In this document: piece by piece, positions 6,248 to 54,726 of the stretch | Layout of the letters: every line of letters begins with the position of its first letter | Position numbering within the stretch: the first letter of the stretch is position 1 | NCBI GenBank assembly: GCA_021739765.1 | Contig: JAIPBD010000009.1 | Span: 1 to 64,000 of the forward strand | Reading direction: 5' to 3' | DNA from: Melioribacteraceae bacterium | Lineage (GTDB): Bacteria > Bacteroidota > Ignavibacteria > Ignavibacteriales > Melioribacteraceae | Length of the DNA: 64,000 nt | Translations under genes and position numbers: made by a program | Notes under the pieces: model-generated | The model's database searches: none | What the model was told of the DNA's origin: nothing | The model's input: only the letters and a program-made list of their open reading frames with translations

Positions 6248-6263
6248 TCTGAAACTTTTTTTC

Positions 6264-6287: not shown

Positions 6288-6321
6288 ATAATTTATTCAA
6301 TATTAAGAGTGTGATGAGAAA

Positions 6322-38400: not shown

Positions 38401-38931
38401 ATTATTGGGAATATACAATTCGGTTTCAGTGGTGGTGGAGAAACGATTTACCTTATAAACGATATCGGGTTAGTTATCGATTCGGTTGAATATGATGATG
38501 TGAATCCTTGGCCAAATGAAGCCGACGGATACGGGGCAACCCTCGAATTGATTCATCCGGATCTTGATAATAATTTGCCGGTCAGTTGGGAAAGATCAAA
38601 CGAGAACGGATCGCCCGGTGAAAGAAACGGAGTATATTCTTCGGTATCGAATAATCAAAGTGTAACTCTTATAGATAATTTATATCCCAACTATCCAAAT
38701 CCATTTAATCCGACTACAAAATTCAGATATTCTTTGGCAGAACGCGGTAATGTGATCCTGGAGTTATATGATTTGTTAGGGCGAAAAGTAAAAACTATCC
38801 TAAATGAAGAATTAGACGCCGGAATTCACACCGGCACAATAGATATGACAAACAATTCAAGTGGTGTATATTTCTTATTTTTCAAAACTCCAAAAACACA
38901 ACAACTGAATAAATTATTACTCCTCAAGTAA
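35404..38931 (+). CDS. T9SS-exported CotH kinase-family protein with lamin-tail domains
   Basis: A 1175-residue secreted protein: signal peptide (about 8-25), lamin-tail domain (about 26-110, INEVSSSNADLINDEDGDDPDWIEIYN), a beta-rich region, a chitobiase C-terminal-like module (about 360-445, SDGSEPT), a CotH kinase domain (about 450-800) with YWGIQNIREKINEDF and the metal-site motif ILFDLDFGFG, an InlB-like repeat (about 845-910, GYSFIGWSG), a second lamin-tail domain (about 918-1070) and a T9SS tail (NYPNPFNPTT). CotH proteins of spore formers are protein kinases; here an extracellular or surface kinase is predicted. It is last in the HlyD-VTC-DUF4956 operon. Confidence 0.87.
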   Translation: MKLVLGKMRTYFLIGYFAVFSLASAQSIIINEVSSSNADLINDEDGDDPDWIEIYNSSTNPIDVSNYFLSDSKTKIDKWQFPSLILNPHEYRIVFASGKSTNNSVVHWETIIDEGENWSYLIPTSEPPTNWNNLGFNDAAWSSGPTGIGYGDNDDNTVIRSALSVFGRKAFTIEDTSDIGRILFHIDFDDAFVAYLNGIEIGRANLGLPGSPVAYNRIPSSDREAQLYNGGKANVYEVPKELLYVGNNVLAVQVHNISMNSSDLSMIPFLTLGLTEKPADGKGSSSKLDLLSDQLHTNFKLKAEGDDLYLSRGSQIIDSMILPNLPVNVSFGRHVNNSDSLVIFSNPTPGAQNSGDSFPAISPNVEFSSPGGVYINSISITLSTNSAADIYITSDGSEPTKNSQKYSHPLNISSTVVVKAKAFTDGFMPGATTVNTYVLNQNHKLPIVSITTEPSNLWDYNSGIYVLGPNAESKDPNFGANFWQDWEKPANIEFFHNGNQEFSVGCGLKIFGAWSRANAQKSLALHFRNEYGTSTLEYQMFPDLPINKFESLVLRNSGNDWLETMLRDGLMQNISKGTGVDAMAFRPAVLYLNGEYWGIQNIREKINEDFLASHHDIDPQRVDILEFQSDVVEGFSDEYNQLYNYISSNSMSVSSNYEYVKSQIDIENFISYQLLNIYYDNTDWPGNNIKFWKAWDGDSRWRWILFDLDFGFGLFNSGRYTNNTLEFATEANGPGWPNPPWSTLLLRKLLENSEFKNQFILRAADLANTNLSSERATDILDSLAGLVRPEISNHANRWGMFSKANWETRINQLRNFAQNRTIYFRIFFQNYFGISGTSPVNFKNNNIEGGVIKANSLLITEEDWNGLFFNNIELPIKAVAKPGYSFIGWSGISTKSETIVINPATTNSVTANFRKWDGENETIVINEINYNSSADFNTEDWIELYNNSNSDIDLSEWVIKDSQEHEFIIPTNSVMKPDEYLVLVEDQILFESKFTSVKNIIGNIQFGFSGGGETIYLINDIGLVIDSVEYDDVNPWPNEADGYGATLELIHPDLDNNLPVSWERSNENGSPGERNGVYSSVSNNQSVTLIDNLYPNYPNPFNPTTKFRYSLAERGNVILELYDLLGRKVKTILNEELDAGIHTGTIDMTNNSSGVYFLFFKTPKTQQLNKLLLLK

Positions 38932-38940
38932 ATAGATTCA

Positions 38941-38961
38941 GCTTCATCTAAGCGCTTTTTT
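38941..38961 (+). terminator. Weak intrinsic-terminator candidate after the CotH gene
   Basis: GCTT (38941-38944) can pair with AAGC (38950-38953) over a 5-nt loop, followed by GC and six T residues to 38961, nine bases after the CotH stop. The stem is short, so this is only a plausible end of the operon. Confidence 0.3.
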
Positions 38962-39047
38962 CAATCCTCAAAAAAAATAGAAATAGTATTGAATATAAAC
39001 GGAGTTTATTGTATTATTTTAGTGCCTAAAATAATTGATGATTTTTT

Positions 39048-39389
39048 ATGCACGAAATGGCAATAGCCCAAAACATAATCGAGATTGCGGAAGAATATGC
39101 AGTTAAGTCTGCGGCTCTAAAAGTTAATGAAATAGAGTTGGACATTGGGAAACTTGCAGGTATTGAATTGGAATCACTATTATTCGCTATTGATGTAATT
39201 AAAGAGGGTACAATTTGTAATTCCGCGAAAATGATAATCAACCACGTGGAAGCTCAATTTAATTGCACGGAATGTTTAAGTACGTTTAATACAGAAAATT
39301 ATTACGCAAAATGTCCGGTCTGTAATTCCCATAAGGTCGAAATTATTGCCGGTCGCGAAATGAGGGTAAAATCAATTGACATAAATTAA
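39048..39389 (+). CDS. hypA: HypA nickel metallochaperone for hydrogenase
   Basis: A 113-residue HypA of normal length. The N-terminal MHE motif (His2, Glu3) binds nickel, and the zinc site is formed by C73-x2-C76 and C89-x2-C92. It hands nickel to the hydrogenase large subunit together with HypB. It starts the hyp operon, about 116 bases after the CotH gene; hypB follows after 10 bases. Confidence 0.95.
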   Translation: MHEMAIAQNIIEIAEEYAVKSAALKVNEIELDIGKLAGIELESLLFAIDVIKEGTICNSAKMIINHVEAQFNCTECLSTFNTENYYAKCPVCNSHKVEIIAGREMRVKSIDIN

Positions 39390-39399
39390 GAGGTTATTT

Positions 39400-40203
39400 A
39401 TGTGCGATACATGCGGGTGCACACAACCGGATGAAGCGGTTACACTAAGGAAACCCGGGAAAATAGATTCACATCAACATATTTCTTCTAATCATCAAAA
39501 TCATTCACATTCGCATAGCGAACATCACTCACACAATCACCACGAACATACTCATTCAAAAAAAATATCAATCGAAACGGATATTCTACATAAAAATGAT
39601 TTAATCGCCGAACGGAATCGTGGATATTTCGAAGCAAAAAATATTAGAACAATAAACCTTGTCAGCTCACCCGGGTCCGGAAAAACAAGTCTGCTCGAAA
39701 AAACATTAACCGACCTTAAAGATCAACAGGGGTTTTATGTCATCGAAGGTGATCAACAAACGATGAACGATGCCAATCGTATCGATTCGGTTGGTGTTCC
39801 GGTGATTCAAGTTAATACCGGGAATGGTTGTCATCTTGATTCAAATATGGTGAGCGCCGCCATTAAGGAACTAAATCCTGAGAATAATTCGATTCTAATG
39901 ATTGAAAATGTAGGGAATTTAGTCTGCCCTTCACTTTTTGATCTCGGGGAAACGAAACGAGTGGTGATAATTTCTGTTACGGAAGGTGAAGATAAACCAA
40001 TCAAATATCCGAATATGTTCCAATCATCAGATCTTTGTATAATTAATAAAATAGATTTATTACCATATCTGGATTTTGATTTAGAAAAAATGAAAAATTA
40101 CGCAGTTCAAGTAAATCATCACCTCCAATTTATTGAGTTATCGGTTAAAAGTGGTGAAGGACTTAACGCATGGTATGATTGGCTAAAAAATTTAAAAAAC
40201 TAG
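39400..40203 (+). CDS. hypB: HypB GTPase, nickel insertion and storage
   Basis: A 267-residue protein with the high-affinity nickel motif CDTCGC at the extreme N-terminus, a His-rich segment (about residues 28-54) that can store nickel, and a G domain with P-loop SSPGSGKTS, EGDQQT and the NKIDLL specificity motif. It drives GTP-dependent nickel insertion with HypA. Its 3' end either overlaps the TTG start proposed for hypF at 40179 or precedes the later TTG at 40215. Confidence 0.95.
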   Translation: MCDTCGCTQPDEAVTLRKPGKIDSHQHISSNHQNHSHSHSEHHSHNHHEHTHSKKISIETDILHKNDLIAERNRGYFEAKNIRTINLVSSPGSGKTSLLEKTLTDLKDQQGFYVIEGDQQTMNDANRIDSVGVPVIQVNTGNGCHLDSNMVSAAIKELNPENNSILMIENVGNLVCPSLFDLGETKRVVIISVTEGEDKPIKYPNMFQSSDLCIINKIDLLPYLDFDLEKMKNYAVQVNHHLQFIELSVKSGEGLNAWYDWLKNLKN

Positions 40204-42527
40204 CAAAGGACAAATTGGATACTAATACCCTCACAAGATGTGAAGTGAAGGTAAACGGAATTGTACAGGGGGTTGGGTTCCGGCCTTTTATATATAGATT
40301 AGCACACAATTTTAATCTGACCGGATTTGTTTCAAATACAAATGACGGCGTAATTATTGAAGTGCAAGGCGAGGACAATTCCGTTCGGGATTTTATTATG
40401 GCTATCAATAATGAATCACCACCACTTTCTTCAATCTCGACTTTATCCACAAAAACTCTCGAACTAAATAGTTTGGATGAAAAATTCCTGATTATTAAAT
40501 CCTCCGAGACTTTAGGCAATAAAACTTTAATTTCCCCCGATGTAGCAATCTGTAACGATTGTATTTCAGACATTTCTGATAAAAACAACCGAAGATTTCA
40601 TTATGCCTTCACCAACTGTACGAATTGTGGCCCGAGATTTACAATTATTGAGAAAATTCCATACGATCGTAAATACACTACGATGGAAAAGTTTGAGATG
40701 TGTCCGGAATGTAAATCTGAATTTGAAGATCCTATAAATCGTAGGTTCCATGCTCAGCCCAATGCTTGTCCGGTTTGCGGTCCGAAAGTTTGGTTGGCAA
40801 ATAATAAAAATGAAACAGAAAAGGGTGAAAACCCTTTGGAGCATGCCGCGAATCTGCTTTTGAAGGGGAAAATTTTGGCAATTAAAGGACTTGGAGGATT
40901 TCATTTAGCGTGCGATGCAAATAATAACTCGGTTGTAAATGAATTAAGAAAAAGAAAAAATCGAGAAGCAAAACCACTTGCGGTTATGTGTCGCGATTTT
41001 GAATCCGTTCGTTCAATAGCAAAATTAAATGATTCAGAGATGGAAATATTGGAATCGCCTGAGCATCCGATTGTATTATTAGAAAAGTCAGATTCGTATA
41101 ATTTATCAGATTCCATATCGCCTGATAATGGAAGAATTGGAGTAATGCTGCCTTACACACCATTGCATTGTGTTTTGTTCGAACATTTGAAAAAGTTTTC
41201 TAAAGTTGAATCGCCGATTTTGGTTATGACAAGCGCAAACATTTCCGATGAACCGATTGCAATCAAAAACGATGAAGCTTTTCACCGGCTCGCGGATATA
41301 GCCGATTATTTTGTATTTCATGATCGCGAAATTTTAATCCGTTCAGATGACTCAATTGTTTTGCATGATGAAGATACATTCACATATCGCAGAAGCAGGG
41401 GATTTGTGCCGAAACATATTCCTTTATCCGGAAAATTTCCTTCCATTCTTGCTGTTGGCGCGGAATTGAAAAATTCAATTTGTCTATCAAAAGATGATAA
41501 AGCTTTCCCAAGTCAATACATCGGTGATTTAACAAATTTGCCCGCAATAAATTTCTTCGAGGAAACCACCAAACATATGCAACAAATTCTCGATACCAAT
41601 TTCGAATTTATAGCGCGGGATTATCATCCGAACTATTTATCGTCACAATGGGCGGATAAACAAACCAATAAATCGATATTTAAAATCCAGCATCATCACG
41701 CCCACATGGCATCTTGTATGTTGGAAAATAAAATTGACGAAGATGTAATCGGAGTTATTTGCGACGGAACAGGGCTCGGATATGACAATGCGATTTGGGG
41801 TGGTGAAATATTTATCGGCAGTTATACCAAATTTGAAAGATTTGCACATAACGAATATATCCAATTACCCGGCGGTGACGCTGCATCAAAAGAATGTTGG
41901 CGTTCGGCGGTAAGTTATTTGTATAAATCTTTTGATGGCGAAATTCCCTTGCTTCCGCATTTTCAAGATCTTCCCGTTGATCAAATTCAAATGATTTTGG
42001 AGAAAAACTTGAATTCGCCGCTTACCAGTAGTACAGGAAGACTTTTTGACGCGGTGGCGGCTATTGCGGGCGGACCCAAAATCAACCGGTTTGAAGCTGA
42101 AGCCGCTATACATTTTATGCATTCCGTAAACGATTTTAATGCGAAAGCTTACGAAATTAAAGGCGATTCTGATTTCCCGGAATTGGAATTCAAGGATATC
42201 ATCAAATCTGTTTATTTTGATTTTCTTGAAGGTGAATCATATTCAACGATTGCTTCCAGATTCCATAGATCGTTGAGTTTGCGTTTGCGCGACGCGGTTA
42301 TTCGTGCATATAATTATTCCGGAATAAACAAAGTCGTTTTAAGCGGCGGTGTATTTCAAAATACGGTTTTGTTAAAAATGCTCGTAAATGATTTACAAAA
42401 CGAAAAATTTAATGTTTTTACACAAAAGAAAATACCATGCAATGACGGAGGAATCTCCCTCGGTCAAGTCGCAATAGTCACAAAACTTTTAGCAGAAAAT
42501 CTATCTGAACCAATTTATAACAATTGA
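40179..42527 (+). CDS. hypF: HypF carbamoyltransferase (cyanide-ligand synthesis)
   Basis: HypF makes the thiocarboxamide precursor of the CN ligands of the [NiFe] site from carbamoyl phosphate. The 782-residue protein has an acylphosphatase domain (about 15-105, VQGVGFRPFIYRLA), two zinc fingers (CNDCISD and CGPRFTI patterns; CPECKSE, CPVCGP), a YrdC-like domain (about 210-395) and a Kae1-like domain with the HHHAHMASCMLE metal motif. TTG at 40179 gives a 25-base overlap with hypB. An in-frame TTG at 40215, preceded by AAAGGA, would remove the overlap and keep every domain, and may be the true start. Confidence 0.94.
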   Translation: MAKKFKKLAKDKLDTNTLTRCEVKVNGIVQGVGFRPFIYRLAHNFNLTGFVSNTNDGVIIEVQGEDNSVRDFIMAINNESPPLSSISTLSTKTLELNSLDEKFLIIKSSETLGNKTLISPDVAICNDCISDISDKNNRRFHYAFTNCTNCGPRFTIIEKIPYDRKYTTMEKFEMCPECKSEFEDPINRRFHAQPNACPVCGPKVWLANNKNETEKGENPLEHAANLLLKGKILAIKGLGGFHLACDANNNSVVNELRKRKNREAKPLAVMCRDFESVRSIAKLNDSEMEILESPEHPIVLLEKSDSYNLSDSISPDNGRIGVMLPYTPLHCVLFEHLKKFSKVESPILVMTSANISDEPIAIKNDEAFHRLADIADYFVFHDREILIRSDDSIVLHDEDTFTYRRSRGFVPKHIPLSGKFPSILAVGAELKNSICLSKDDKAFPSQYIGDLTNLPAINFFEETTKHMQQILDTNFEFIARDYHPNYLSSQWADKQTNKSIFKIQHHHAHMASCMLENKIDEDVIGVICDGTGLGYDNAIWGGEIFIGSYTKFERFAHNEYIQLPGGDAASKECWRSAVSYLYKSFDGEIPLLPHFQDLPVDQIQMILEKNLNSPLTSSTGRLFDAVAAIAGGPKINRFEAEAAIHFMHSVNDFNAKAYEIKGDSDFPELEFKDIIKSVYFDFLEGESYSTIASRFHRSLSLRLRDAVIRAYNYSGINKVVLSGGVFQNTVLLKMLVNDLQNEKFNVFTQKKIPCNDGGISLGQVAIVTKLLAENLSEPIYNN

Positions 42528-42535
42528 GGTGAAAA

Positions 42536-42826
42536 ATGTGTTTGGGAATCCCCGGAAAAGTGATTGATATAATAGATGAAGACGGGCTTTTAATGGGCAA
42601 AATCGATTTTGCCGGAAGTGTAAGCAAAGCGTGTTTATCCTATTGCGAAAATGTCGAAGTTGGTCAATATGTTGTGGTGCATGCCGGATTCGCAATCTCT
42701 GTTCTTGATGAAGCTGACGCGGAAGAAACTTTGCAATACTTTAAACAAATGACAGAAGAAGCCGCGAAGGACGGCAGAGACATCTACGATAATCCATTAG
42801 AAAGGGAGAAAGATGAAATATCTTGA
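42536..42826 (+). CDS. hypC: HypC/HybG hydrogenase assembly chaperone
   Basis: A 96-residue OB-fold chaperone beginning MCLGIPGKV, where the essential Cys2 carries the Fe(CN)2CO intermediate with HypD and docks on the large subunit precursor. It starts 8 bases after hypF and overlaps hypD by 14 bases, implying translational coupling with its partner. Confidence 0.95.
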
Positions 42827-43916
42827 TGAATTTCGAGACCCGAAACTAGCCAAATATTTGATTGAAAAAATTAATAAGATCGCGTCAAAAAAATGGGCGA
42901 TTATGGAATTATGCGGAGGCCAGACTCATACGATAATTCAATATGGAATTGATCAACTACTCAGCGAAAATATTGAAATGATCCACGGTCCCGGCTGTCC
43001 GGTGTGTGTAACTCCACTCGAAGTTATCGATAGAGCAATCGAAATCGCAAAAAGAAAGAATGTTATTTTTACGTCATTTGGCGATATGCTCAGAGTTCCG
43101 GGTTCAAATGAGGATTTGTTAAAAGCAAAATCTCTCGGGGCAGATGTTAGAATCGTATACTCACCGCTCGAAGCCGTAAAAATTGCAAAGGCGAATCCGC
43201 AAAAGGAAGTCGTGTTTTTTGCAGTTGGATTCGAAACAACGGCACCGGCTAATGCAATGGCAATAAAACACGCCTCAGATTTAGGCGTTACAAACTTTTC
43301 AGAAATAGTAAGCCAAGTTTTGGTGCCTCCGGCGATGGAAGCGATTTTAAATTCTCCGCTAAACCGAGTAAACGGATTTCTTGCCGCGGGTCATGTTTGC
43401 ACCGTGATGGGATATTGGGAATATGAACCGATTGCGGAAAAATATTCTGTTCCAATCGTTCCAACTGGATTTGAGCCGGTGGATATGCTCGAAGGAATTT
43501 ACCTTGCAGTAAAACAATTGGAAGAGGGAATTGCGTTTGTTGAAAATCAATACTCCCGTTCGATCAAAAGAGAAGGAAATGAAGCCGCTCAAAATATTTT
43601 GAAAGAAGTTTTTCAAATCGAGGATAAAAAGTGGAGGGGAATTGGAGAAATTCCTCAAAGCGGATTAGGAATCAATAAAAAATATGAAAACTATGACGCG
43701 GCATTAAAGTTTGATGTCACTTCCATTAAAACCGAAGAATCAAAACTATGCATAAGTGGAGAAATCTTGCAAGGCAACAAAAAACCATTTGAATGCCCGG
43801 CATTTGGTAAAGAATGCAGTCCGGTAAATCCGCTTGGTGCTACTATGGTTTCTAACGAAGGGGCTTGTGCGGCCTATTACAAATATAATCGTTATAAATA
43901 CTTGGTGAACCAATGA
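42813..43916 (+). CDS. hypD: HypD iron-sulfur scaffold for Fe(CN)2CO assembly
   Basis: A 367-residue HypD with the conserved motifs MELCGGQTH (about 32-40) and [10 protein letters not shown] (about 61-70), the GFETTAP region, and the C-terminal cysteine set [13 protein letters not shown] for the [4Fe-4S] cluster. It assembles the iron-diatomic ligand group with HypC and HypE. It overlaps hypE by 4 bases. Confidence 0.95.
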
Positions 43917-44971
43917 GAAATATCACTCTTGAAAATGGGTTCAATTGTCCGCTGCCGATAAACAATTATGATACCATTCAACTTGCACATGGTTCTGGAG
44001 GCAGATTAACTTCAGAATTGATTGATGAGATGTTTGTTAAAACTTTCGGAAACGAAGTACTTAACAAAATGGAAGACCAGGCTTCACTAAAATTAAACGG
44101 CAACGAAATAGTTTTTACAACCGATTCTTTTGTTGTCGATCCGATTTTTTTCCCGGGTGGAAATATTGGCGAACTTGCGATCAACGGAACTGTGAACGAT
44201 TTATGCATGAATGGCGCTACGCCGCTTTACCTCAGCGTTGCGTTTATACTTGAAGAAGGGCTGAAGATTTCAGATCTTTTTTCGATCGTCCTCAGCATGA
44301 AAAAAGCAGCGGATGAAGCCGGAGTTAAAATCGTTACCGGAGACACTAAAGTAGTGAACAAAGGTCAATGCGACAAAATATACATTAATACTTCCGGTAT
44401 CGGAGTAAGAAATTCCGAAGTTGATATCAGTGCTTCGAATCTAAAGGTCGGGGATAAAATTATTGTTTCAGGCACAATAGCGGATCATGGAATGTCGATT
44501 ATGACAAGTCGTGAAGGGCTCTCATTTCAGAATGACATTATGAGCGACACGGTATCATTAAATGATTTGGTTAAATCAATGATTGAAACAACCAAAAATA
44601 TACACGCGATGAGAGACCCGACAAGAAGCGGAGTTGCCGCGACATTGAACGAATTTGCGAAACAATCTGATGTCGGCATAAATATCAATGCCGAGAAAAT
44701 TCCGATTAAACCAAATGTAAAAGGAGCTTGTGAGATTCTTGGAATTGATCCTTTGTTTGTTGCCAATGAAGGCAAATTGATCGCAGTGGTAGCAGCGGAA
44801 CACGCGGAAAATTTATTGCAAATTATGCGTGCACATCGTTGTGGCAAGGATTCTGAAATAATAGGTGAAGTTGTGAATGAACATCGAGGCGTAGTTGTTA
44901 AAAAAACAATTCTTGGTGTGGAACAAATTGTTGATCTGCCGCTTGGCGAACAACTCCCTAGAATCTGTTAG
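43913..44971 (+). CDS. hypE: HypE carbamoyl dehydratase
   Basis: A 352-residue PurM/ThiL-type ATPase that dehydrates the thiocarboxamide on its C-terminal cysteine to thiocyanate, giving cyanide to iron. The protein ends in the required PRIC tail (Cys352). N-terminal LAHGSGGRL and the ATP-site DQASL and TTDSFVVDP patterns are present. It overlaps hypD by 4 bases, completing hypA-B-F-C-D-E. Confidence 0.95.
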
Positions 44972-44982
44972 GAGTAATTAAA

Positions 44983-45351
44983 ATGAAATTTATTTTTATA
45001 ATGTTTCTTTTGTTTGTAGTCTCTTGCGGTGGAAAAACTGAAAATGTAAGTTTCTCTAATGACATTAAACCAATTTTGGATGAAAATTGCACCATCTGTC
45101 ATAATTCCGAGGACGATCAGAAAAATTTGAATTTTGAGAGTTATGAATCACTTATGAATTCAAGGTATTTAAATAGAAACCAGGCGCTTATTATTCCCGG
45201 AGACTCAGAAGTAAGCAGAATTTATCTGGTTACACATTCTAATAAATCAGCGATCAGAATGCCTCCGGAAAGTTTTGGATTCGATAAACTCAGTGAGAGT
45301 CAGATTCAAAAAATTAAAGTTTGGATTGATGAAGGCGCGAAAAATAATTAG
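44983..45351 (+). CDS. Lipoprotein c-type cytochrome in the hyp operon
   Basis: A 122-residue protein with a lipoprotein signal ending VVSC (Cys15), one haem-binding motif CTICH (C36, C39, H40) and a probable distal Met ligand in IRMPPE (M93). It resembles small planctomycete-type cytochrome c domains. It lies 11 bases after hypE and 8 bases before the sigma-54 activator, so it belongs to the same transcript. It may be an electron carrier for the periplasmic hydrogenase or a redox input; neither is shown. Confidence 0.8.
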   Translation: MKFIFIMFLLFVVSCGGKTENVSFSNDIKPILDENCTICHNSEDDQKNLNFESYESLMNSRYLNRNQALIIPGDSEVSRIYLVTHSNKSAIRMPPESFGFDKLSESQIQKIKVWIDEGAKNN

Positions 45352-45359
45352 GAGAATCA

Positions 45360-46358
45360 TTGAGAAACGAATCAAATAGTTCGAAACGGAAACCGGTAAA
45401 TCTTATTACGCACAACGAAAATGTTCAAAAAATGATAGATAGAATTGATCGTGTTGTGAGTTCAAACAGTTCTATTTTATTGGTTGGGGAGACAGGTGTC
45501 GGGAAAGAAATATTTGCCGAATATGTCCACTATAATAGTCTCCGGTACGATAAACCTTTCGTAAAAGTGAGCCTCTCAGCGTTATCCTCAGATTTGCTCG
45601 AAAGCGAATTATTTGGACATGAAAAAGGATCTTTTACTTCCGCCCACACCGAAAAAAAAGGTTTATTTGAAATCGCGGATACAGGAAGCATATTTTTGGA
45701 TGATATTGATGATGTTCCATTGGAAATTCAAACCAAATTACTTAGAGTTTTAGAATCGCACGAATTAATGAGAATCGGCGGCACAAAGCCAATTCCAATT
45801 GATGTTAGGGTAATAACAGCATCAAAAGTTGATCTAAAACTTCTGATCGAAAAAGGTCGATTTAGATCTGATCTGTTTTACCGAATTAATGTTGTTCCTG
45901 TTCAAATTCCTCCGCTTCGTGAAAGAAGGGAAGATATCCGACCACTCGTAAATTATTTTTTCGGTTACTATGCGCCTGAAGAAGAATTTGAATTGAGCGA
46001 TGATGCGCTTCGTGCTATCGAATCTTATTCATGGCCGGGAAATGTTCGGGAGCTTCGTAATGTAATCCAAAGATTAACCTTGCTGACCGAAGGATCTATC
46101 GATACTCACGATCTGCCGATTGAGATAAAAAACGAAGATCCTCAAGAAATAATTTTGAAAGCATGTGATCGTTGCTTCGTAGATAATAAGATGAGTTTCG
46201 AATCCGTTGTAAATTGCCTGGAAGTGAACCTTTTACGCCAGGCTTTATCACGGGCCGAATGCAATCAAACCCAAGCCGCAAAAATGCTCAATATGAGTCT
46301 TTCCACCTTCCGTGATAAAATCAAAAAATACAATGTTGATTGCTCCACCAATCATTAA
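45360..46358 (+). CDS. Sigma-54-dependent activator lacking a receiver domain
   Basis: A 332-residue bacterial enhancer-binding protein. The AAA+ domain starts almost at the N-terminus (about 15-240), with Walker A GETGVGKE (43-50), Walker B IFLDDIDD and an arginine-finger region (FRSDLFYRINV). The sigma-54 contact loop reads GSFTSA (90-95) instead of GAFTGA. A Fis-type helix-turn-helix (NQTQAAKMLNMSLSTFRDKI) ends the protein. Five cysteines lie in the last ~75 residues, starting with a CDRC pair. TTG at 45360 follows an AGGAG site. With no sensory domain, activity may be set by partners or by the cysteines. Likely target is the hydrogenase promoter just downstream. Confidence 0.85.
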   Translation: MRNESNSSKRKPVNLITHNENVQKMIDRIDRVVSSNSSILLVGETGVGKEIFAEYVHYNSLRYDKPFVKVSLSALSSDLLESELFGHEKGSFTSAHTEKKGLFEIADTGSIFLDDIDDVPLEIQTKLLRVLESHELMRIGGTKPIPIDVRVITASKVDLKLLIEKGRFRSDLFYRINVVPVQIPPLRERREDIRPLVNYFFGYYAPEEEFELSDDALRAIESYSWPGNVRELRNVIQRLTLLTEGSIDTHDLPIEIKNEDPQEIILKACDRCFVDNKMSFESVVNCLEVNLLRQALSRAECNQTQAAKMLNMSLSTFRDKIKKYNVDCSTNH

Positions 46359-46371
46359 AATTTTCTGAATT

Positions 46372-46406
46372 TGCGGAATTCCGTAATTCTACCTGCGGAT
46401 TTCCGC
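46372..46406 (+). promoter_or_regulatory. Tandem palindromic upstream activating sites
   Basis: TGCGGAATTCCG (46372-46383) and TGCGGATTTCCG (46394-46405) differ at one base and are spaced 22 bp, about two DNA turns. Each is a palindrome (CGGAATTCCG; GCGGA-TT-TCCGC). They lie just after the activator stop and about 85-105 bases upstream of the expected hydrogenase transcription start, the usual place for enhancer sites of sigma-54 activators. Confidence 0.7.
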
Positions 46407-46458
46407 TAATTTTTATAGGATAATAGTACAAAACAGTCCTTTTCTCTCGATTATGATT

Positions 46459-46474
46459 CGGCATACTAATTGCG
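46459..46474 (+). promoter_or_regulatory. Sigma-54 (-24/-12) promoter of the hydrogenase structural operon
   Basis: CGGCATACTAATTGCG has GG at 46460-46461 and GC at 46472-46473 separated by exactly 10 bases, matching the TGGCAC-N5-TTGC rule with CGGCAT and TTGC. The predicted start is near 46484, 23 bases before the ATG of the 79-residue gene. An activator gene and tandem palindromes immediately upstream support it. Confidence 0.7.
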
Positions 46475-46506
46475 ATACTATTACCGTCGATAATTAAGGA
46501 CTGGTC

Positions 46507-46746
46507 ATGACTAAAATTCAAGCCGCTCAAAAAGTCGAATTGAACGGAAAAGTAATTGAGATTTATCAAAGGGAATCTGAGAAATTGATGACAATCCAAC
46601 TTGAACCATCCTTTTTAAGTTTTCGATGCATATTAGAAGAGAATTTTCACCTTGGAGACGAAATTTTAATCAAGGGGAACTTAACAATTGAAAATCTATC
46701 GGAAAAAATTTCTGACGATCTAAACAACAAACAATCTCAAAATTAA
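46507..46746 (+). CDS. Small beta-rich protein of unknown function, first gene of the hydrogenase operon
   Basis: A 79-residue protein, no signal peptide or membrane segment. Predicted beta-strands (KVELNGKVIEIYQR, KLMTIQLEP, FRCILEE, DEILIKGNLTIENL) followed by a charged tail suggest a small barrel or OB-like fold similar in size to HypC, but the essential MCxGxP start of HypC is missing. It is the first gene after the sigma-54 promoter, and the large-subunit gene starts 12 bases after its stop. A hydrogenase-specific chaperone is possible; no family is recognised. Confidence 0.65.
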   Translation: MTKIQAAQKVELNGKVIEIYQRESEKLMTIQLEPSFLSFRCILEENFHLGDEILIKGNLTIENLSEKISDDLNNKQSQN

Positions 46747-46758
46747 CCGGGAGGATAA

Positions 46759-48318
46759 ATGGCTAAAATTGTAATTGATCCGCTAAACCGTGTAGAGGGT
46801 CATCTAAAAATTGAAGCCGTTGTTGAAAATGGAGTCGTTACCGAAGCAAGAAGTGCCGGTACCCTTTGGAGGGGAATCGAAAATATTCTTGAAGGACGTA
46901 ACCCACTCGACGCACAAAGGATAACTCAACGTATTTGCGGAGTTTGTCCCACAGCTCATTCAACAGCGTCAACTCTAAATCTTGATTCCGCTTTTGGAAT
47001 TGCCGGGAAAATTCCCGACAACGGACGCATCATGCGAAATCTTATTTTTGGAAGCAATTATCTACAATCACACATTCTGCATTTTTATCACTTGACCGCA
47101 CTCGATTATGTCGATGTTGCGGCGGTAGCCGATTATAAAGGCAAAGATCCCGAACTCGTACAAGTGAAACAATTTATCGATCGAGGTTCGTTAGCGCCTT
47201 TCTTTCCAAGATATGAAGGTGATTACAGGCTCAAAAAAGAAGAAAATGTTGCAGCAGTTAAACACTATGTACAAGCTCTGAAGATGAGAACAATCACTCA
47301 TGAATTGCTCGGTATTTTTGGTGGAAAAATGCCGCATAATATGGCAATGGTTCCCGGAGGATGTTCTGAAAGACCAACTGTTGATAAAATAGCCGATTTT
47401 CGATGGAGATTGGAAAAAGTTCGATCATTTATCAATGACGTTTATATTCCCGATGTTTTAATGGTCGCCTCCAGATACCCGGATTACTTCTCGATTGGTT
47501 CCGGCGTGGGTAAATATATGTCCTACGGTGGATTTGAATTAGACTCAAATCCTGATCTCACAAAAAGAAAAAGACTTTTCCCAAGAGGAAGAGTTTCAAT
47601 CAAAGATCTAAAATTGTTGGATTTTGATCCTGAACAAATTACTGAAGATATTAAATATAGTTGGTATAAGTCCGGGTCGGGTTTAAAACCTGCTGTTGGT
47701 GAAACGGTTGCCGACCGCAAAAAGAGCGGCGCTTATTCATGGTTAAAAGCTCCGAGATACAACGGTGAAGTTCATGAAGTAGGTCCGGTTGGAAGACAAT
47801 TGATTGCGTATTTGAATGGTTTTGAACCTACCGTCAAGTTAGTCGATTATGTGCTCGGTTACTTTAAAGCGCCACCATCCGTTTTAGATTCTACACTTGG
47901 TCGGCACGCGGCCAGAGCAATCGAAGCAAAAATTATTTCTGATTATATGGCTGAATGGGTTCTTGAATTAAAACCAGGCGAACCGGTTCACACACCTTTT
48001 GAAATACCCGAATCCGCAGAAGGAATGGGAATCACCGAAGCTCCTCGCGGTTCTTTGGGTCACTGGATTACTATCAAAGATCATAAAATTTCAAATTATC
48101 AGGCTGTTGTACCGACAACTTGGAACGGTGGACCGAGAGATGATAAAGGTCAACCCGGACCATTCGAACAAGCTCTTGAGGGTACGAAAGTAAAAGATCC
48201 TAACAATCCTTTCGAGCTGGTAAGAATCGTTCGTGCGTTTGATCCTTGCTTGGCTTGCGCGATTCATGTGGTAACACCGAAAGGAAAAGAACTTTCAAAA
48301 TTCATAATTGAAGCATGA
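46759..48318 (+). CDS. [NiFe]-hydrogenase large subunit (group 1, uptake type)
   Basis: The 519-residue catalytic subunit binds the NiFe(CN)2CO centre. Nickel ligands are in RICGVC (C60, C63) and DPCLAC (C497, C500). Sixteen residues follow His503 (VVTPKG onward), the C-terminal extension removed by the maturation protease. The N-terminal DPLNRVEGHL and RGIENIL motifs are those of membrane-linked group 1 enzymes related to HybC. GGGAGGA precedes the ATG. The protease gene overlaps the stop by 4 bases. The usual order, small before large, is reversed here. Confidence 0.96.
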   Translation: MAKIVIDPLNRVEGHLKIEAVVENGVVTEARSAGTLWRGIENILEGRNPLDAQRITQRICGVCPTAHSTASTLNLDSAFGIAGKIPDNGRIMRNLIFGSNYLQSHILHFYHLTALDYVDVAAVADYKGKDPELVQVKQFIDRGSLAPFFPRYEGDYRLKKEENVAAVKHYVQALKMRTITHELLGIFGGKMPHNMAMVPGGCSERPTVDKIADFRWRLEKVRSFINDVYIPDVLMVASRYPDYFSIGSGVGKYMSYGGFELDSNPDLTKRKRLFPRGRVSIKDLKLLDFDPEQITEDIKYSWYKSGSGLKPAVGETVADRKKSGAYSWLKAPRYNGEVHEVGPVGRQLIAYLNGFEPTVKLVDYVLGYFKAPPSVLDSTLGRHAARAIEAKIISDYMAEWVLELKPGEPVHTPFEIPESAEGMGITEAPRGSLGHWITIKDHKISNYQAVVPTTWNGGPRDDKGQPGPFEQALEGTKVKDPNNPFELVRIVRAFDPCLACAIHVVTPKGKELSKFIIEA

Positions 48319-48821
48319 TAACTAATAAGAAAATATTGATCGTTGGGGTTGGGAATTCGATTCAAATGGATGATGGTGTCGGAATCCATACTATCAATGA
48401 ACTGAAAAAATATGATTTGCCAAGGAACGTAAAATTGTTTGATGGCGGAACACTCGGAGTTGATCTGATGCCCTGGCTTGAGGGAAATGATCATGTGATT
48501 TTTATTGATTCTGTTGACGCGAATGAAAATCCGGGGACGATATTTAAATTCAAACCGGATGATATCAATTATGAATCTGCTCCGAAAACATCAGTTCATC
48601 AGATCGGATTGATAGAAGCGATTCAGATGATAAAACTTATCGGAAAAGCTCCCTCAGAAATTACAATATTCGGAATCCAACCAAAAACTATCGATTGGGG
48701 AGAGAATTTAACCGAACCGGTTGAAAATTCGATCCCAAAAGTTATCAAACATGTTTTAGCGGAAATTGAAAATTCATTAAAAGAATTAAATAATCCATTA
48801 ATGGAGGAAGAAAATGGGTGA
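48315..48821 (+). CDS. Hydrogenase maturation endopeptidase (HyaD/HybD type)
   Basis: A 168-residue nickel-sensing protease of the HybD family. The N-terminus has GVGNSIQMDDGVGIHTI, with the acidic nickel ligand in the D-D-G-V-G motif. DGGTLGVDLMPWLEG and the later SVHQIGL-like segment provide the other ligands (for example His in TSVHQIG). It removes the tail of the large subunit after nickel insertion. It is wedged between large and small subunit genes, overlapping both (4 and 8 bases). Confidence 0.93.
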   Translation: MITNKKILIVGVGNSIQMDDGVGIHTINELKKYDLPRNVKLFDGGTLGVDLMPWLEGNDHVIFIDSVDANENPGTIFKFKPDDINYESAPKTSVHQIGLIEAIQMIKLIGKAPSEITIFGIQPKTIDWGENLTEPVENSIPKVIKHVLAEIENSLKELNNPLMEEENG

Positions 48822-49929
48822 AAATAAAGAATGGACAAGGCGTGAATTTATAAACCTCTTCGGTAAAGGCACCGGTTTGGTGATGGGAGCAAGTCTGTTC
48901 GGAATACCCGGTTTTAATAAAGTTTTTGCTCAAGCTGTCGCTGAAGTACCTGTTTTATGGCTTCAAGCCGGCTGCTGTACCGGATGTTCTGTTTCAGTAC
49001 TCAATTCCAAAAGTCCAGAAATTCAGGATGTTTTGCTCGGCGAAGTCGTTCCCGGAAAACATCTTAGCATGTTGTGGCATCCAAATGTTTCTGCTACACA
49101 GGGGCATGATGCCGTAAAAATAATTCAAGATTTAAAGAAAAAACCAAAGGGAAGTTTCGTACTTGTAATCGAAGGTGCTATATCTACCAAAGATGATGGA
49201 ATTTATTGCGAAGTAGGTGAAGAAGATGGGCATGGAATTACATCTCTGCAACACCTAAAAGAGCTTGCTCCCAAAGCAATGGCAATAATTTCAATGGGAA
49301 CATGCGCCGCCTTTGGCGGAATTCCTGCTGCTGATCCGAATCCAACGGGGAGCAAACCTGTTGATCAAGTTTTGGAAGAAGAAGGAATTGATACCCCGAT
49401 TATTAATATTTCCGGTTGCCCGCCCCATCCCGATTGGTTTATTGGAACCGTAGCTACAGTTTTGATTGGCGGATTGGAAGCTATAAAAGTTGATGAACAC
49501 AAAAGACCGGTAGCATTTTATGGTAAAATTATTCATGATAATTGCCCAAGAAGGGGACAATTTGATCAGGGTAATTTTGCGAAAGATTTCGGCGATGACG
49601 GTTGTCTTTACGCGCTTGGCTGCAAAGGTCCGGTAACTCATTCGGATTGCCCGAACAGAAAATGGAACAGCGGTGTTAATTGGCCAATCGGAAGTGGTCA
49701 TCCATGTATTGGTTGTACTGAGCCAAAATTCCCGTGGGGAAAGGATATGTATCAACAAGTGGATGTACATTTCGCAACTGCTCCGAGTACTTATCCCGGA
49801 ATTATTAACCAAAAAGATTCTACATACGATCCACTTGTAACAGGATTGGTAGGAGCAGCCGCGGGAGCAGCGGGAGCAGCAATGGTTATGAAGAAAAAGA
49901 AAGAGCAAAAAGAATCCGGGGAGGCATAA
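48814..49929 (+). CDS. [NiFe]-hydrogenase small subunit with Tat signal
   Basis: A 371-residue electron-transfer subunit. It has a twin-arginine signal (TRREFINLFGKGTG, then a hydrophobic run) that exports the folded dimer. Proximal cluster motifs are CCTGCS, GTCAAFGG and GCPPHPDW. Distal and medial clusters are in HDNCPRRGQFDQG, CLYALGCKGP, DCPNRKWN and HPCIGCTEPKFPW. A Gly/Ala-rich hydrophobic tail (about 340-360) ends in lysines and anchors it to the membrane. The ferredoxin gene starts one base after its stop. Confidence 0.96.
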   Translation: MGENKEWTRREFINLFGKGTGLVMGASLFGIPGFNKVFAQAVAEVPVLWLQAGCCTGCSVSVLNSKSPEIQDVLLGEVVPGKHLSMLWHPNVSATQGHDAVKIIQDLKKKPKGSFVLVIEGAISTKDDGIYCEVGEEDGHGITSLQHLKELAPKAMAIISMGTCAAFGGIPAADPNPTGSKPVDQVLEEEGIDTPIINISGCPPHPDWFIGTVATVLIGGLEAIKVDEHKRPVAFYGKIIHDNCPRRGQFDQGNFAKDFGDDGCLYALGCKGPVTHSDCPNRKWNSGVNWPIGSGHPCIGCTEPKFPWGKDMYQQVDVHFATAPSTYPGIINQKDSTYDPLVTGLVGAAAGAAGAAMVMKKKKEQKESGEA

Positions 49930-49930
49930 A

Positions 49931-50833
49931 ATGGCTGTAGACCGAAGATCTTTTTTGAAATTTGGTGCAGCGACTGTTGGTGTTAGTTTGCTTGGGTTTA
50001 ATGAAACAAACGCGGAAGCAAATGATGAATTTGCCGATAATTACGCGATGTTAAACGATTCCACACTTTGCATCGGTTGTCGGGGATGTCAATCCGCTTG
50101 CAAAGAAGCACACGAACTACCACATACAGGGCACGATAAAAGATATGAAATGCCAACAGATCTTAATGCACAAAATCTTACTTTAATTCAGCTCCAAAGG
50201 AAGTCGGAGGACGAATATACTTTTATTCGCAGATCATGTTTACACTGCAATGTTCCGTCTTGTGTTTCAGTTTGTCCGGTTGCCGCATTTACAAAACGAG
50301 CCGATGGTGTTGTAGCTTACGATAAGGATAAATGTATCGGTTGCCGATATTGCCAAGTTGCTTGTCCATTTGACGCTCCAACATTTGAATACAACAGCGC
50401 GACTCCGGTTGTCGTAAAATGTGATTTTTGTAAAGACCTTCGTCTCAAGAATAATGAGACTCCGGTCTGTGCATCAATCTGTCCGCGAAAGGCTATTAAA
50501 TTCGGAACAAGGAAAGAACTTCTCAGGGAAGCTCATAAAAGAATCAAAGATAATCCGGGCAGATACAATACACATGTATACGGCGAAACAGAGATCGGTG
50601 GAACATCGGTGATGTTCCTCGCTCCCGCAGGATTTACGTTCGAAGAACTCGGATACAGAAAATGGGGCGAAACTCCACCCGGACAAATGCAAGAAGAAAT
50701 TCAGCATGGAATATTCAAATATTGGATTCCGCCGGTTGCGCTTTACGGAGCATTAGGTTTAGCCGCTTATACACTCGGAAAAAAGAATTCAAATAAATCT
50801 GATGATTCAGGGGAGGTTAAAAATGAAAGTTAA
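49931..50833 (+). CDS. HybA-like periplasmic 4Fe-4S ferredoxin subunit
   Basis: A 300-residue protein with a Tat signal (DRRSFLKFGAATVG) and four [4Fe-4S] cluster motifs: CIGCRGCQSAC, CLHCNVPSCVSVCP, CIGCRYCQVACP and CDFC...CASICP. A C-terminal transmembrane helix (about 256-276) anchors it. It moves electrons from the hydrogenase small subunit to the NrfD-type membrane subunit, as HybA does in E. coli hydrogenase 2. Its end overlaps the next gene by 11 bases. Confidence 0.93.
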   Translation: MAVDRRSFLKFGAATVGVSLLGFNETNAEANDEFADNYAMLNDSTLCIGCRGCQSACKEAHELPHTGHDKRYEMPTDLNAQNLTLIQLQRKSEDEYTFIRRSCLHCNVPSCVSVCPVAAFTKRADGVVAYDKDKCIGCRYCQVACPFDAPTFEYNSATPVVVKCDFCKDLRLKNNETPVCASICPRKAIKFGTRKELLREAHKRIKDNPGRYNTHVYGETEIGGTSVMFLAPAGFTFEELGYRKWGETPPGQMQEEIQHGIFKYWIPPVALYGALGLAAYTLGKKNSNKSDDSGEVKNES

Positions 50834-51977
50834 CGCCGCACCGATGAATCAAAATTTATGGACAAAAGGATTTACAACCGGTGTAACTATTATTGCGCTC
50901 GGAATATTGGTTGTGATTTACAGATTTATTTTTGGACTTGGGGCAGTTACGAATTTAAGTGACGGGGTTCCTTGGGGACTTTGGATCGCTTTCGATGTTG
51001 TAACGGGTATCGCGCTTGCCGCAGGCGGATTTACAACTGCCGCCCTCGTTTATGTTTTTAACAAAGGTGAATATTCCCCTTTGGTTAGACCGGCTTTATT
51101 GACCGCTCTGTTAGGTTACGGAATCGCCGGTTTTTCCATTATTCTTGATGTGGGGAGATGGTGGCAGATATATAATCCGATTTGGTCCTGGCAAGGGAGT
51201 TCACCACTTTTTGAAGTCTCGATTTGTGTAATGTCATATTTGACTGTTTTATTCTTGGAATTTGTTCCGATCATGGCAGAAAAATTCGATCAAAATCCTG
51301 ATTCATTACTTGCCAAAATAATAGTAAAGATTGCTCCGGTGGTCAATAGATTTTTGATCGCACTGATCATTTTGGGAATCGTAATTTCTACTTTACATCA
51401 ATCCTCATTGGGTTCAGTAATGATGATAGCCGTGGCGCGGATTCATCCTCTCTGGCACTCAGCTTGGATGCCTTTGTTATTCTTAATTTCAGCCATTGCG
51501 ATCGGATTTCCTGTGCTTGTAATCGAATCTTACTATTCGGCGAAAGCTTTCGGACGTAAATTTGAGCAAGGAATTCTGTCCCAATTATTAAAACTTACTC
51601 CATGGATATTGGGTCTTTACGTGGTAGTAAGATTTGCGGATATTATCGTTACCGGAGAGCTTAATTTACTTGTTGCGGATATTTGGGGCATTGTTTTCGT
51701 TGTGGAGATGTGTTTGATCGCAATAATCCCTACTGTGCTTTTACTAAATAAAAAATACCGCGAAAGCGATTCCGGCATCTTGACGATTTCATGGATGATG
51801 ATTCTCGGATTGGTGATGAATCGTTTCAACACATACTTAATTACTTATCAACCGAGACCCGGTTGGGATTATTTCCCATCGCTGGGAGAAATAATTGTAT
51901 CTGCGATGCTTGTATCTCTTTTATTTGTGGGATATAAACTTCTCGCTAATTATTTTCCGGTATTAAGTAAAGAATAA
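50823..51977 (+). CDS. HybB/NrfD-family quinone-interacting membrane subunit
   Basis: About 384 residues with 9-10 transmembrane helices, the NrfD/PsrC family (GVPWGLWIAFDVVTGIALAAGG near the start, LHQSSLGS in the middle). It passes electrons from the ferredoxin subunit to menaquinone. ATG at 50823 with GGGGAGG at 50813-50819 is preferred over an upstream in-frame start at 50802. With the Tat-exported dimer this completes a HybOABC-like quinone-linked hydrogenase. Confidence 0.93.
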   Translation: MKVNAAPMNQNLWTKGFTTGVTIIALGILVVIYRFIFGLGAVTNLSDGVPWGLWIAFDVVTGIALAAGGFTTAALVYVFNKGEYSPLVRPALLTALLGYGIAGFSIILDVGRWWQIYNPIWSWQGSSPLFEVSICVMSYLTVLFLEFVPIMAEKFDQNPDSLLAKIIVKIAPVVNRFLIALIILGIVISTLHQSSLGSVMMIAVARIHPLWHSAWMPLLFLISAIAIGFPVLVIESYYSAKAFGRKFEQGILSQLLKLTPWILGLYVVVRFADIIVTGELNLLVADIWGIVFVVEMCLIAIIPTVLLLNKKYRESDSGILTISWMMILGLVMNRFNTYLITYQPRPGWDYFPSLGEIIVSAMLVSLLFVGYKLLANYFPVLSKE

Positions 51978-51997
51978 TTCTATTTAAGGAAAAACTA

Positions 51998-52711
51998 ATG
52001 GATCAAAGCCTCGGCATACTACTTCTAACCGCATTATCGATTGGATTTATTCATACGATTCTCGGTCCGGATCATTACATCCCTTTTATTGCAATGGCAA
52101 AAGCAGGTGAGTGGTCTAAAATTAAAACCGTTATTGTTACGGTTCTCGCCGGCATCGGACACGTGATGAGCTCAATTCTACTAGGTTTTATCGGAATTGC
52201 GTTAGGTCTTGCACTAAATATTTTGGAAGATATTGAATCGATGCGAGGCGATTTTGCAGGCTGGGCTTTGATTACATTTGGTTTGATTTATTTTATTTGG
52301 GGTTTGCGAAGAGCATTTAAAAACAAAAAACATTCACATTGGCATAAACATCCTGAAGGAGTTGTTCATGATCATGAGCATAGTCATAAATCGGAACACG
52401 CGCATGTTCACGAAGAATCAGCTTCATCAAAAATTACACCCTGGGTATTATTTACAATTTTTGTTTTTGGTCCTTGTGAAGCATTAATTCCACTTTTAAT
52501 GTATCCCGCCGCAAACTCCGGTATTTTTGAAGTTGTTCTCGTTTCTACAGTATTTGGTGTGTCAACAATTTTAACAATGCTCACAATTGTTATGGTTGCG
52601 CTGTACGGATTTCAGTTCGTACCTATCGAAAAATTTAACAAATACTCTCATGCCGCTGCGGGATTGCTTATTCTGATAAGCGGACTTTCGGTTCAGGTTT
52701 TAGGCTTGTAG
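51998..52711 (+). CDS. Nickel/cobalt permease candidate with His-rich loop
   Basis: A 237-residue membrane protein with about six helices. TM1 contains H19-x5-D25-H26 (HTILGPDH), close to the HX4DH nickel-binding signature of NiCoT/UreH/RcnA proteins. A cytoplasmic loop (about 112-143) carries some ten histidines (HSHWHKH, HDHEHSHKSEHAHVH). It is 20 bases after the hydrogenase membrane subunit, so nickel supply for the enzyme is the natural role. Direction of transport (uptake or export) cannot be read. Confidence 0.78.
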   Translation: MDQSLGILLLTALSIGFIHTILGPDHYIPFIAMAKAGEWSKIKTVIVTVLAGIGHVMSSILLGFIGIALGLALNILEDIESMRGDFAGWALITFGLIYFIWGLRRAFKNKKHSHWHKHPEGVVHDHEHSHKSEHAHVHEESASSKITPWVLFTIFVFGPCEALIPLLMYPAANSGIFEVVLVSTVFGVSTILTMLTIVMVALYGFQFVPIEKFNKYSHAAAGLLILISGLSVQVLGL

Positions 52712-52727
52712 ATGTTTTGTACATATT

Positions 52728-53120
52728 ATGGGTAACCTAAAAAAGAATGCAAAAATATATTTCCTTTTGATTGCGATCCACTCTTTAGGTGTTGGGTTCG
52801 CTCTAATTATTCTCCCTTCTGATTTTTTAATGCAATTCGGATATCATCAAATCACCGAGCCATTTTTTAAGGTTCAGGGTGGTGTATTCCATATTGTGAT
52901 GGCAATAGTTTACTACTTTGTATTTATCGATCCGATTCGAAACATAAATTTGATTAAAGTTACATTTATCGCGAAATTTATCGCCACTCTGTTCCTCATT
53001 TCCTTTTTCGTTTTTTATGATCCGATTTTGGTTGTTCTACTCTCCGGTTTGGGAGATTTTCTCATGGGATTTGTCGCATTTTATTTCTATAAAAAGTTAA
53101 GTCCAAGTATTCATGAGTAA
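52728..53120 (+). CDS. Small four-helix membrane protein of unknown function
   Basis: A 130-residue protein with four predicted transmembrane helices (about 10-30, 50-68, 77-97 and 101-122). No catalytic or metal-binding motif is visible and the family is not recognised; it may belong to a DUF of small four-helix proteins. It lies 16 bases after the nickel permease and overlaps the SDR gene by 8 bases, so it rides on the hydrogenase transcript. Confidence 0.6.
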   Translation: MGNLKKNAKIYFLLIAIHSLGVGFALIILPSDFLMQFGYHQITEPFFKVQGGVFHIVMAIVYYFVFIDPIRNINLIKVTFIAKFIATLFLISFFVFYDPILVVLLSGLGDFLMGFVAFYFYKKLSPSIHE

Positions 53121-54645
53121 ATCCAAAGAATTAGAAACTTCGATTTTAGTGACTGGGGCATCCGGTTTTATCGGACAGTATTTTCTCGAACGAATTAAAA
53201 ATCATTTTAAGGTTTTCGCTCTCGCACGCCGGCTTCCTCAAAATTCGAGTATTGTTGATCACCCGAATATTACGTGGATTCAAGCTGATATTAGCAGTGA
53301 CAAAGCTGTCAGAAAAGCCGCAAAAATTATCAATGATAATGGAGGCATAAAATTCATTTTGCATCTTGCCGGTTATTACGATTTTAATTACGACAAAAAC
53401 CCGGAGTATTACAGAACGAATGTGCTTGGAACCCGCAACGTTCTGGAAATGGCAAAAAATCTTAATATCGAAAGATTTATGTTCGCGAGTTCAATTGCCG
53501 CATGTGAATTTCCGCTAAAAGGAGAAAAAATAAATGAAAAAACTCCACCTGACGCGAACTTCGAATATGCCGTAACTAAAAAAGCAGGTGAGGAATTATC
53601 AAAGGAATATTCAAAATATTTCAAAACGAGTATTTTACGATTTGCCGCGGCCTTCAGCGATTGGGGTGAATATGGACCTCTTTATATATTTTTGAAAACT
53701 TGGTTATCGAAAAGTTGGAAATCAACAATTCTCGGTGGAAAGGGCGAAGCTGCGATTACCTACATCCATGTAAATTGTTTGATTGATTTAATCCTTAAAA
53801 TCATCAGAAATTCGGATGAATTACTGCAACATGATACTTATGTTGTGAGCCCGAACAGACCTGTAAGTCATAATGAACTTCTAGCAACAGCAACAAGATA
53901 TTTTTTTGGGAAACCGAAAAAACCATTCCACATGCCTAAAACTATTTCGTATGTGGGAGTCGTTGTGATGAATATATTGGGGAGATTAATCGGGAAAGCG
54001 CCTTTTGAAAAACCTTGGATGATGCAGTATATCGACAAAGAATTAAATGTTGATAATACATATACGCGCGAAACGCTAAAATGGGAGCCATCTCAAAGAT
54101 ATAAGATTCAAAGAAGATTACTTTACATGATTGAACACATGAAAAGTTATCCTTACGAATGGCAAAAAAGAAATTTGAAAATGTCCAAATACTTATCGCT
54201 ATCTCCCAATTACAAAATTTATGAAAAGTTAGAAAATTTACGTGATTCCGTAATCGAGCAAATACTCGAGGAATTATTAAAAGAAGAGAATAGACCAAAT
54301 TGTCCCGGTTATCACAGTATCGATATCTCGGCATTGAGGAAAGATACTATTACGATTTATCAATTTTTATCCGTTTCGGTTCGTACTCGAGATAGAGTTT
54401 CGCCACTTGCCTATGCGAGACAAATCGCATTTGTAAGATCGGATCAAAACTTCAAACCGGATGAGGTTCTATTTGCCATTAAAGTAATCGGTGAGATAGT
54501 TACAAATAATTTGCTCAGACAGCCGGAACTAAAAGGAATGGGACAAGCAATTCACGACGATATCACACTCACAATTCAGTTGATGGCTGATGAAATCGAA
54601 AGTACATTTGAGCTCATCGCGAGGGAAAACCAGCCGATTATTTGA
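53113..54645 (+). CDS. NAD-dependent epimerase/dehydratase (extended SDR) with extra C-terminal helical domain
   Basis: A 510-residue protein. Residues about 10-335 are an extended SDR with GASGFIG (15-21), SSIAA and the catalytic Y152-x3-K156. The remaining ~150 residues (about 360-510) are helical, with SVSVRTRDRVSPLAYARQIAFVRS and FAIKVIGEIVTNNLLR, reminiscent of RsbR N-terminal/stressosome-type sensor domains. This fusion is unusual. The gene overlaps the upstream membrane protein and ends the hydrogenase-linked run. The substrate is unknown; a regulatory or lipid/sugar-modifying role is possible. Confidence 0.7.
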   Translation: MSKSKELETSILVTGASGFIGQYFLERIKNHFKVFALARRLPQNSSIVDHPNITWIQADISSDKAVRKAAKIINDNGGIKFILHLAGYYDFNYDKNPEYYRTNVLGTRNVLEMAKNLNIERFMFASSIAACEFPLKGEKINEKTPPDANFEYAVTKKAGEELSKEYSKYFKTSILRFAAAFSDWGEYGPLYIFLKTWLSKSWKSTILGGKGEAAITYIHVNCLIDLILKIIRNSDELLQHDTYVVSPNRPVSHNELLATATRYFFGKPKKPFHMPKTISYVGVVVMNILGRLIGKAPFEKPWMMQYIDKELNVDNTYTRETLKWEPSQRYKIQRRLLYMIEHMKSYPYEWQKRNLKMSKYLSLSPNYKIYEKLENLRDSVIEQILEELLKEENRPNCPGYHSIDISALRKDTITIYQFLSVSVRTRDRVSPLAYARQIAFVRSDQNFKPDEVLFAIKVIGEIVTNNLLRQPELKGMGQAIHDDITLTIQLMADEIESTFELIARENQPII

Positions 54646-54726
54646 TGATTCGACAGTCCTACTTATCATTTTATCCAAACTTTATTCTATCTTAAAAACC
54701 TAATTAAAAACTTTCTGAGAATTTGT

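Follow-up and report, generated by a model that had tools for sequence, protein, structure and literature searches.

Tandem palindromes and a -24/-12 element mark a putative sigma-54 switch in front of an orf79-[NiFe]-hydrogenase operon

The window, by which we mean the whole stretch of 64,000 nt of DNA from a Melioribacteraceae bacterium that was analysed (GCA_021739765.1, contig JAIPBD010000009.1, positions 1 to 64,000, forward strand), carries on its + strand a block of hyp maturation genes (39048 to 44971), the gene for a sigma-54 activator and, behind a short gap, the genes for a [NiFe]-hydrogenase (Table 1). The gap under study, 46359-46506, lies between the stop codon of the activator gene and a small open reading frame, orf79. 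The neighbouring activator on which the initial annotation of this DNA relied is real, as judged by its domain matches. The annotation had also placed a hydrogenase operon directly behind the gap; the large subunit gene is indeed there, but the promoter-proximal gene is orf79, which does not encode a hydrogenase subunit. The large subunit is the only one of its type (PF00374) encoded in the genome, and its best matches among solved structures are [NiFeSe] and [NiFe] hydrogenases. Homologues of the short cytochrome-like gene are found at the same place in locus L021 and downstream of the activator in L034 and L036, and homologues of the DsbD_2-like gene lie near hydrogenase or hyp genes in relatives, for example in L033, L039 and L056.

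Table 1. Genes and sequence elements around the gap, with the matches or remarks on which each naming is based.
Feature	Position	Strand	Basis or remark
hypA	39048-39389	+	HypA over NCBIfam cut-off
hypB-like	39400-40203	+	named from ORF sequence
hypF	40179-42527	+	HypF over NCBIfam cut-off
hypC	42536-42826	+	HypC over NCBIfam cut-off
hypD	42813-43916	+	named from ORF sequence
hypE	43913-44971	+	named from ORF sequence
short c-type cytochrome-like gene, hypE-activator interval	44983-45351	+	PSCyt1 Pfam 3.7e-7
sigma-54 activator, 332 aa, TTG start	45360-46358	+	PF00158 1.6e-62, AAA_lid_14, HTH_8 3.5e-9
upstream site 1, palindrome TGCGGAATTCCGTA	46372-46385	+	TGCGGAATTCCG at 46372-46383; conserved in relatives
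upstream site 2, TGCGGATTTCCGCT	46394-46407	+	TGCGGATTTCCG at 46394-46405; conserved in relatives
-24/-12 sigma-54 element CGGCATACTAATTGCG	46459-46474	+	GG 64 nt from second core start
orf79, 79 codons, first gene of presumed operon	46507-46746	+	52-member alignment A1
[NiFe]-hydrogenase large subunit	46759-48318	+	PF00374 3.2e-157; NF033181 over cut-off
hydrogenase maturation protease	48315-48821	+	HycI 1.3e-30
hydrogenase small subunit	48814-49929	+	NiFe_hyd_SSU_C; TIGR00391 over cut-off
4Fe-4S ferredoxin-type subunit	49931-50833	+	Fer4_11 1.1e-18
NrfD-type membrane subunit	50802-51977	+	NrfD 3.1e-20
DsbD_2-like membrane protein, possible operon member	51998-52711	+	DsbD_2 6.8e-9

Two tandem palindromes spaced 22 bp apart had been claimed for the gap, and both are present. 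They are the only matches to TGCGGAWTTCCG in the 64 kb window (0.04 expected; two matches were seen in 1 of 100 shuffles), and the arrangement CGGANNTCCG-N12-CGGANNTCCG matches the window once when up to 3 mismatches are allowed, this one match having 0 mismatches (0.12 expected). The perfect pair is likewise unique in the 4.54 Mb assembly, where the runner-up has 2 mismatches. A second pair before hypA is ruled out at up to 3 mismatches, as the window holds one pair only. That the palindromes arose by chance was rejected in view of their uniqueness in window and genome and their conservation measured against shuffles, which is described below; the consensus of the site is about TRCGGAWWTCCGYA.

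The annotated GG-N10-GC element also proved exact, with GG at 46460-46461, ten bases, and GC at 46472-46473. Scored against the -24/-12 consensus TGGCAC-N5-TTGC, CGGCATACTAATTGCG agrees in 8 of 10 letters, the deviations being C for T before the GG and T for C at the sixth position of the -24 element. Such a match is not significant alone, with 44 window matches at two mismatches or fewer as against 47.8 expected; its weight derives from its position relative to the palindromes, which is fixed in relatives. The genome has an rpoN gene, on whose presence the initial annotation had made its proposal depend, with one match (PF04552, 1.1e-58). A sigma-70 promoter within the gap was rejected after a simple scan of 46330-46800, which gave two matches, both outside the gap, and an RNA element after an Rfam search of 38000-56000, which gave nothing at the gathering score. 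No terminator was found by a simple scan of 46330-46800, and read-through from the hyp block may therefore also transcribe the hydrogenase operon.

To follow the elements through relatives, the best 80 of 197 candidate loci were combined with activators from relatives' genomes, giving 100 distinct activators: 72 at 50% identity or more, 26 at 40-50%, which served as a distant control set (flanks partly only about 1.5 kb), and 2 below. A pair was scored when two CGGANNTCCG sites stood 21-23 bp apart with at least 13 of 16 letters matching in the first 300 nt after the activator gene, and 70 of the 72 loci, having at least 100 nt of downstream sequence, qualified for the count; 200 shuffles served as the null. 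It can be seen that both sites and their spacing are kept together with the activator in relatives, the conservation that the annotation had asked about. The pair stands downstream of the activator in 40 of the 70 loci (shuffles: mean 0.165, maximum 1), the remaining 30 having no pair in the gap at the threshold used, and none of the 26 distant activators has one. Behind the pair, a sigma-54 site scoring at least 8/10 is present in 32 of the 40 loci (shuffles 0.89, maximum 4), and the best sigma-54 site lies 61-67 nt from the second core start in 25 of the 40 (shuffles 0.04, maximum 1). A second spacing class, with the sigma-54 site 122-133 nt past the second core start, comprises L064, L065, L069, L075, L076 and L078, mostly Bacteroidota loci. 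A scan of 58 genomes from the family to which the window belongs gave 4 pairs with one mismatch or fewer, all 4 directly at the activator gene, and 26 pairs with two mismatches, 2 of them at an activator. Within the set of loci, the pair was found upstream of 41 of 55 orf79-family genes as against 0 of 31 hypC genes, and 32 of these 41 orf79-family promoters show the 61-67 nt spacing.

The composite of palindrome pair and sigma-54 site is not confined to the position directly behind the activator gene. In L027, L028, L029 and L037 it is found before the hydrogenase or its orf79 and not directly behind the activator; in L041, L048, L052 and L057 one composite behind the activator is joined by a second right before the hydrogenase (with a spacing of 85 nt in the second composite of L041); and in L029 and L054 it is placed before the small-subunit gene, level with the end of orf79 or behind it. 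The placement before the hydrogenase in several loci indicates that the element follows its target. Of the 48 loci in which a hydrogenase lies downstream on the same strand, 38 have the composite no more than 1300 nt ahead of the first hydrogenase gene, among them L027, L029, L037 and L054 with a composite not directly behind the activator; the other 10 have none at the threshold used, and some loci scored negative contain degraded copies by eye. Hydrogenase or hyp/protease genes accompany 64 of the 72 activators compared with 1 of the 26 distant ones, the flanks of which are partly shorter. Two types of hydrogenase stand behind the switch, a window-like one in 3 of 43 loci and, in the other 40, one whose small-subunit gene comes first, a count that left out five loci with short upstream flanks. 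In 30 of 67 loci the activator gene follows a hyp gene of the same strand that ends no more than 400 nt before it, and thus often closes a maturation block.

The activator itself has an AAA+ domain from residue 15 and a Fis-type HTH at the C-terminus, and no receiver or other N-terminal sensor domain was detected by Pfam search. The upstream open frame has a median length of 10 codons in the group as against 146.5 in the distant set, and the three long frames of the group contain no further Pfam domain. That the activator itself senses a signal was discounted, as there is no domain for it; control would most likely act through the level of the activator, by cotranscription with the hyp genes, and/or through a partner in trans. 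Compared with the model for PspF proper (TIGR02974) the protein scores 270.2 bits, below the NCBIfam cut-off of 443.55. PspF keeps the GAFTGA motif; the activator here has no literal GAFTGA and reads GSFTSA. At the fifth residue of this motif the 72 activators have Ser (47), Asn (9), Thr (1) or Gly (14), with 1 unreadable, and all 26 distant ones have Gly. The state of the loop needs 5 changes on the activator tree, and a single origin of the altered loop is therefore not established. With GAFTSA as a search word, no paper was found in the open-licence literature.

The orf79 protein of the window has no Pfam or NCBIfam match, and its structure model is a small OB-type barrel (mean pLDDT 82). 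Among the 52 family members, HypC/HupF Pfam matches were obtained for 2, both weak (best E 0.022), and TOBE matches for 3 (best E 0.1); Mop/TOBE molybdate-tungstate binding proteins show no significant sequence match to the family. When aligned with HypC, none of the 52 has Cys at the Cys2 position and 1 has His at the His position. The family resembles the HypC/HybG/HupF chaperones in its profile and in the predicted small barrel, and differs from them, as they are described in an excerpt of PMC9002611, in having neither Cys2 nor His and in its shorter C-terminus. We regard orf79 as probably a HypC relative that lacks both ligand-site residues. Paralogues of HypC lacking Cys2 also occur at L174:1403-1588 and L175:1182-1382 (61 and 66 aa), directly before the true hypC and over the Pfam HupF_HypC cut-off.

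The distribution of orf79 follows that of the activator. Of 59 relatives' genomes, 10 contain the activator clade (best E<=1e-110), and the 9 with an orf79 match (E<=1e-10) all belong to these 10; each of the 7 genomes with PF00374 at E<=1e-40 has both activator and orf79. Likewise, a sample of 296 phylum genomes contains the activator (E<=1e-95) in 11 and orf79 (E<=1e-10) in 6, all within those 11, and in every case the distance between the activator match and the orf79 start is 152-180 nt; the remaining 5 gave no orf79 match at this threshold. PF00374 is over its cut-off in 10 of the 11. The exception, G038, is rated 100% complete and has no PF00374 match at E<=0.01, yet activator, pair, sigma-54 site and orf79 are all retained there, and the element therefore cannot be called a hydrogenase switch in the strict sense. 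The G038 gap, on contig C44, reads like that of L031, which has the same four parts at 5980-7339; the upstream neighbours, from ORF reading, are putative 2-oxoacid oxidoreductase and acyl-CoA synthetase genes.

We consider it likely, with a probability of roughly 0.86 on the strength of the sequence comparisons, that the gap is a dedicated sigma-54 switch through which the activator, bound at both sites, turns on the orf79-hydrogenase operon. Dimers of the activator, the gene for which ends the hyp maturation block, would bind the two palindromes, some two helical turns apart on one face of the helix. Assembled there, presumably as a hexamer, the activator would contact RNA polymerase-sigma54, bound to the -24/-12 element some six turns downstream, and open the promoter, which would drive orf79 and then the large subunit, protease, small subunit, Fe-S and NrfD genes. 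Cotranscription of the activator with the hyp genes would impose the order 'maturation first, enzyme second'. Feedback by the HypC-like orf79 protein is possible. As the partner of such an activator orf79 is a natural candidate, in the manner of PspA or HrpV, but a role as a dedicated assembly factor is just as possible. In a more specific form, which we regard as rather unlikely, orf79 would be a former HypC that lost its iron-ligand residues and turned regulator; it would sense assembly by binding HypD or the immature large subunit, and would restrain or free the activator in trans, as PspA does with PspF. The retention of activator, sites and orf79 without a [NiFe]-hydrogenase match would fit a regulator-partner pair. 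The loop of the activator resembles that of the NorR G266 escape mutants, in which the second Gly is likewise replaced by Ser or Asn, and this would fit an activator that is no longer held by a cis domain; the substitution is natural here, many sequences also having Tyr for Phe, and those of NorR, in the excerpt of PMC2941729, were made in the laboratory in a GAF-controlled protein. Were orf79 to hold the activator, hydrogenase transcription would be tied to maturation capacity.

A different reading of the same parts is that the element is primarily the promoter of orf79, so that activator, sites and orf79 form a unit with the hydrogenase as one of several cargos. The confinement of orf79 to activator genomes, its position adjoining the activator in all 6 phylum cases, the persistence of the unit in G038 and the two types of hydrogenase found behind the element all agree with this. 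However, the second composites directly before the hydrogenase in four loci, those at or behind the end of orf79 in L029 and L054, and the presence of PF00374 in 10 of the 11 phylum activator genomes speak against it, and we think this reading doubtful, if worth keeping in view.

Two further alternatives concern the activator. The palindromes might bind another regulator, such as a repressor, with the promoter served by a different sigma-54 activator; the genome has 14 strong Sigma54_activat matches from which to draw, and binding of the pair by the neighbouring activator is itself deduced. Since the genome has no second perfect pair, and since the pair tracks this activator subfamily and is absent from the distant set, we judge this very improbable. 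A shade less credible still is that the activator, owing to GSFTSA, has ceased to activate sigma-54 and works in another way, for example by repressing transcription as TyrR and HgtR can. The second Gly is replaced in 57 of the 71 readable sequences of the group, and GAFTGA is termed invariant in an excerpt of PMC12316311. Against this, the sigma-54 site is conserved at a fixed spacing, and in NorR, according to an excerpt of PMC2941729, Asp and Asn at the same loop position are fully constitutive, Ser is among other residues giving activity without signal, and Phe to Tyr allows partial escape.

The dedicated sigma-54 switch that we favour has known counterparts. HoxA and HupR are NtrC-type sigma-54 activators that use upstream sites and control [NiFe] hydrogenase operons; the system described here differs in that the activator has no N-terminal receiver domain, the spacing is fixed and orf79 comes first in the operon, and the HoxA/HupR palindrome is a different one. 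PspF and HrpR/HrpS are, like the activator here, sigma-54 activators without a cis regulatory domain, PspF being held by PspA and HrpS by HrpV, and their targets differ (PMC7057263, excerpt). That sigma-54 activators occur close to [NiFe] hydrogenases has been described (cluster 17; PMC12727194, excerpt), and sigma-54 control of hydrogenases is known in Proteobacteria (PMC12316311, excerpt). No description of a sensorless activator with an altered loop, combined with this site code and followed by a HypC-like gene at the head of the operon, was found in the open-licence literature. Two palindromes, a fixed spacing and a -24/-12 element would provide a readable regulatory code for hydrogenases of Ignavibacteriota, Bacteroidota, Calditrichota and their neighbours. 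A census by GAFTGA only, as in the excerpted part of PMC12316311, would discard such activators, and the HypC-like first gene makes a coupling of maturation and transcription directly testable.

One further member of the same activator clade, at L167 (G006:C1:1208000-1226000), reads GAFTGS and stands without orf79; its neighbours, from ORF reading, are genes for a putative Mvh/Hdr-type hydrogenase together with hyp genes.
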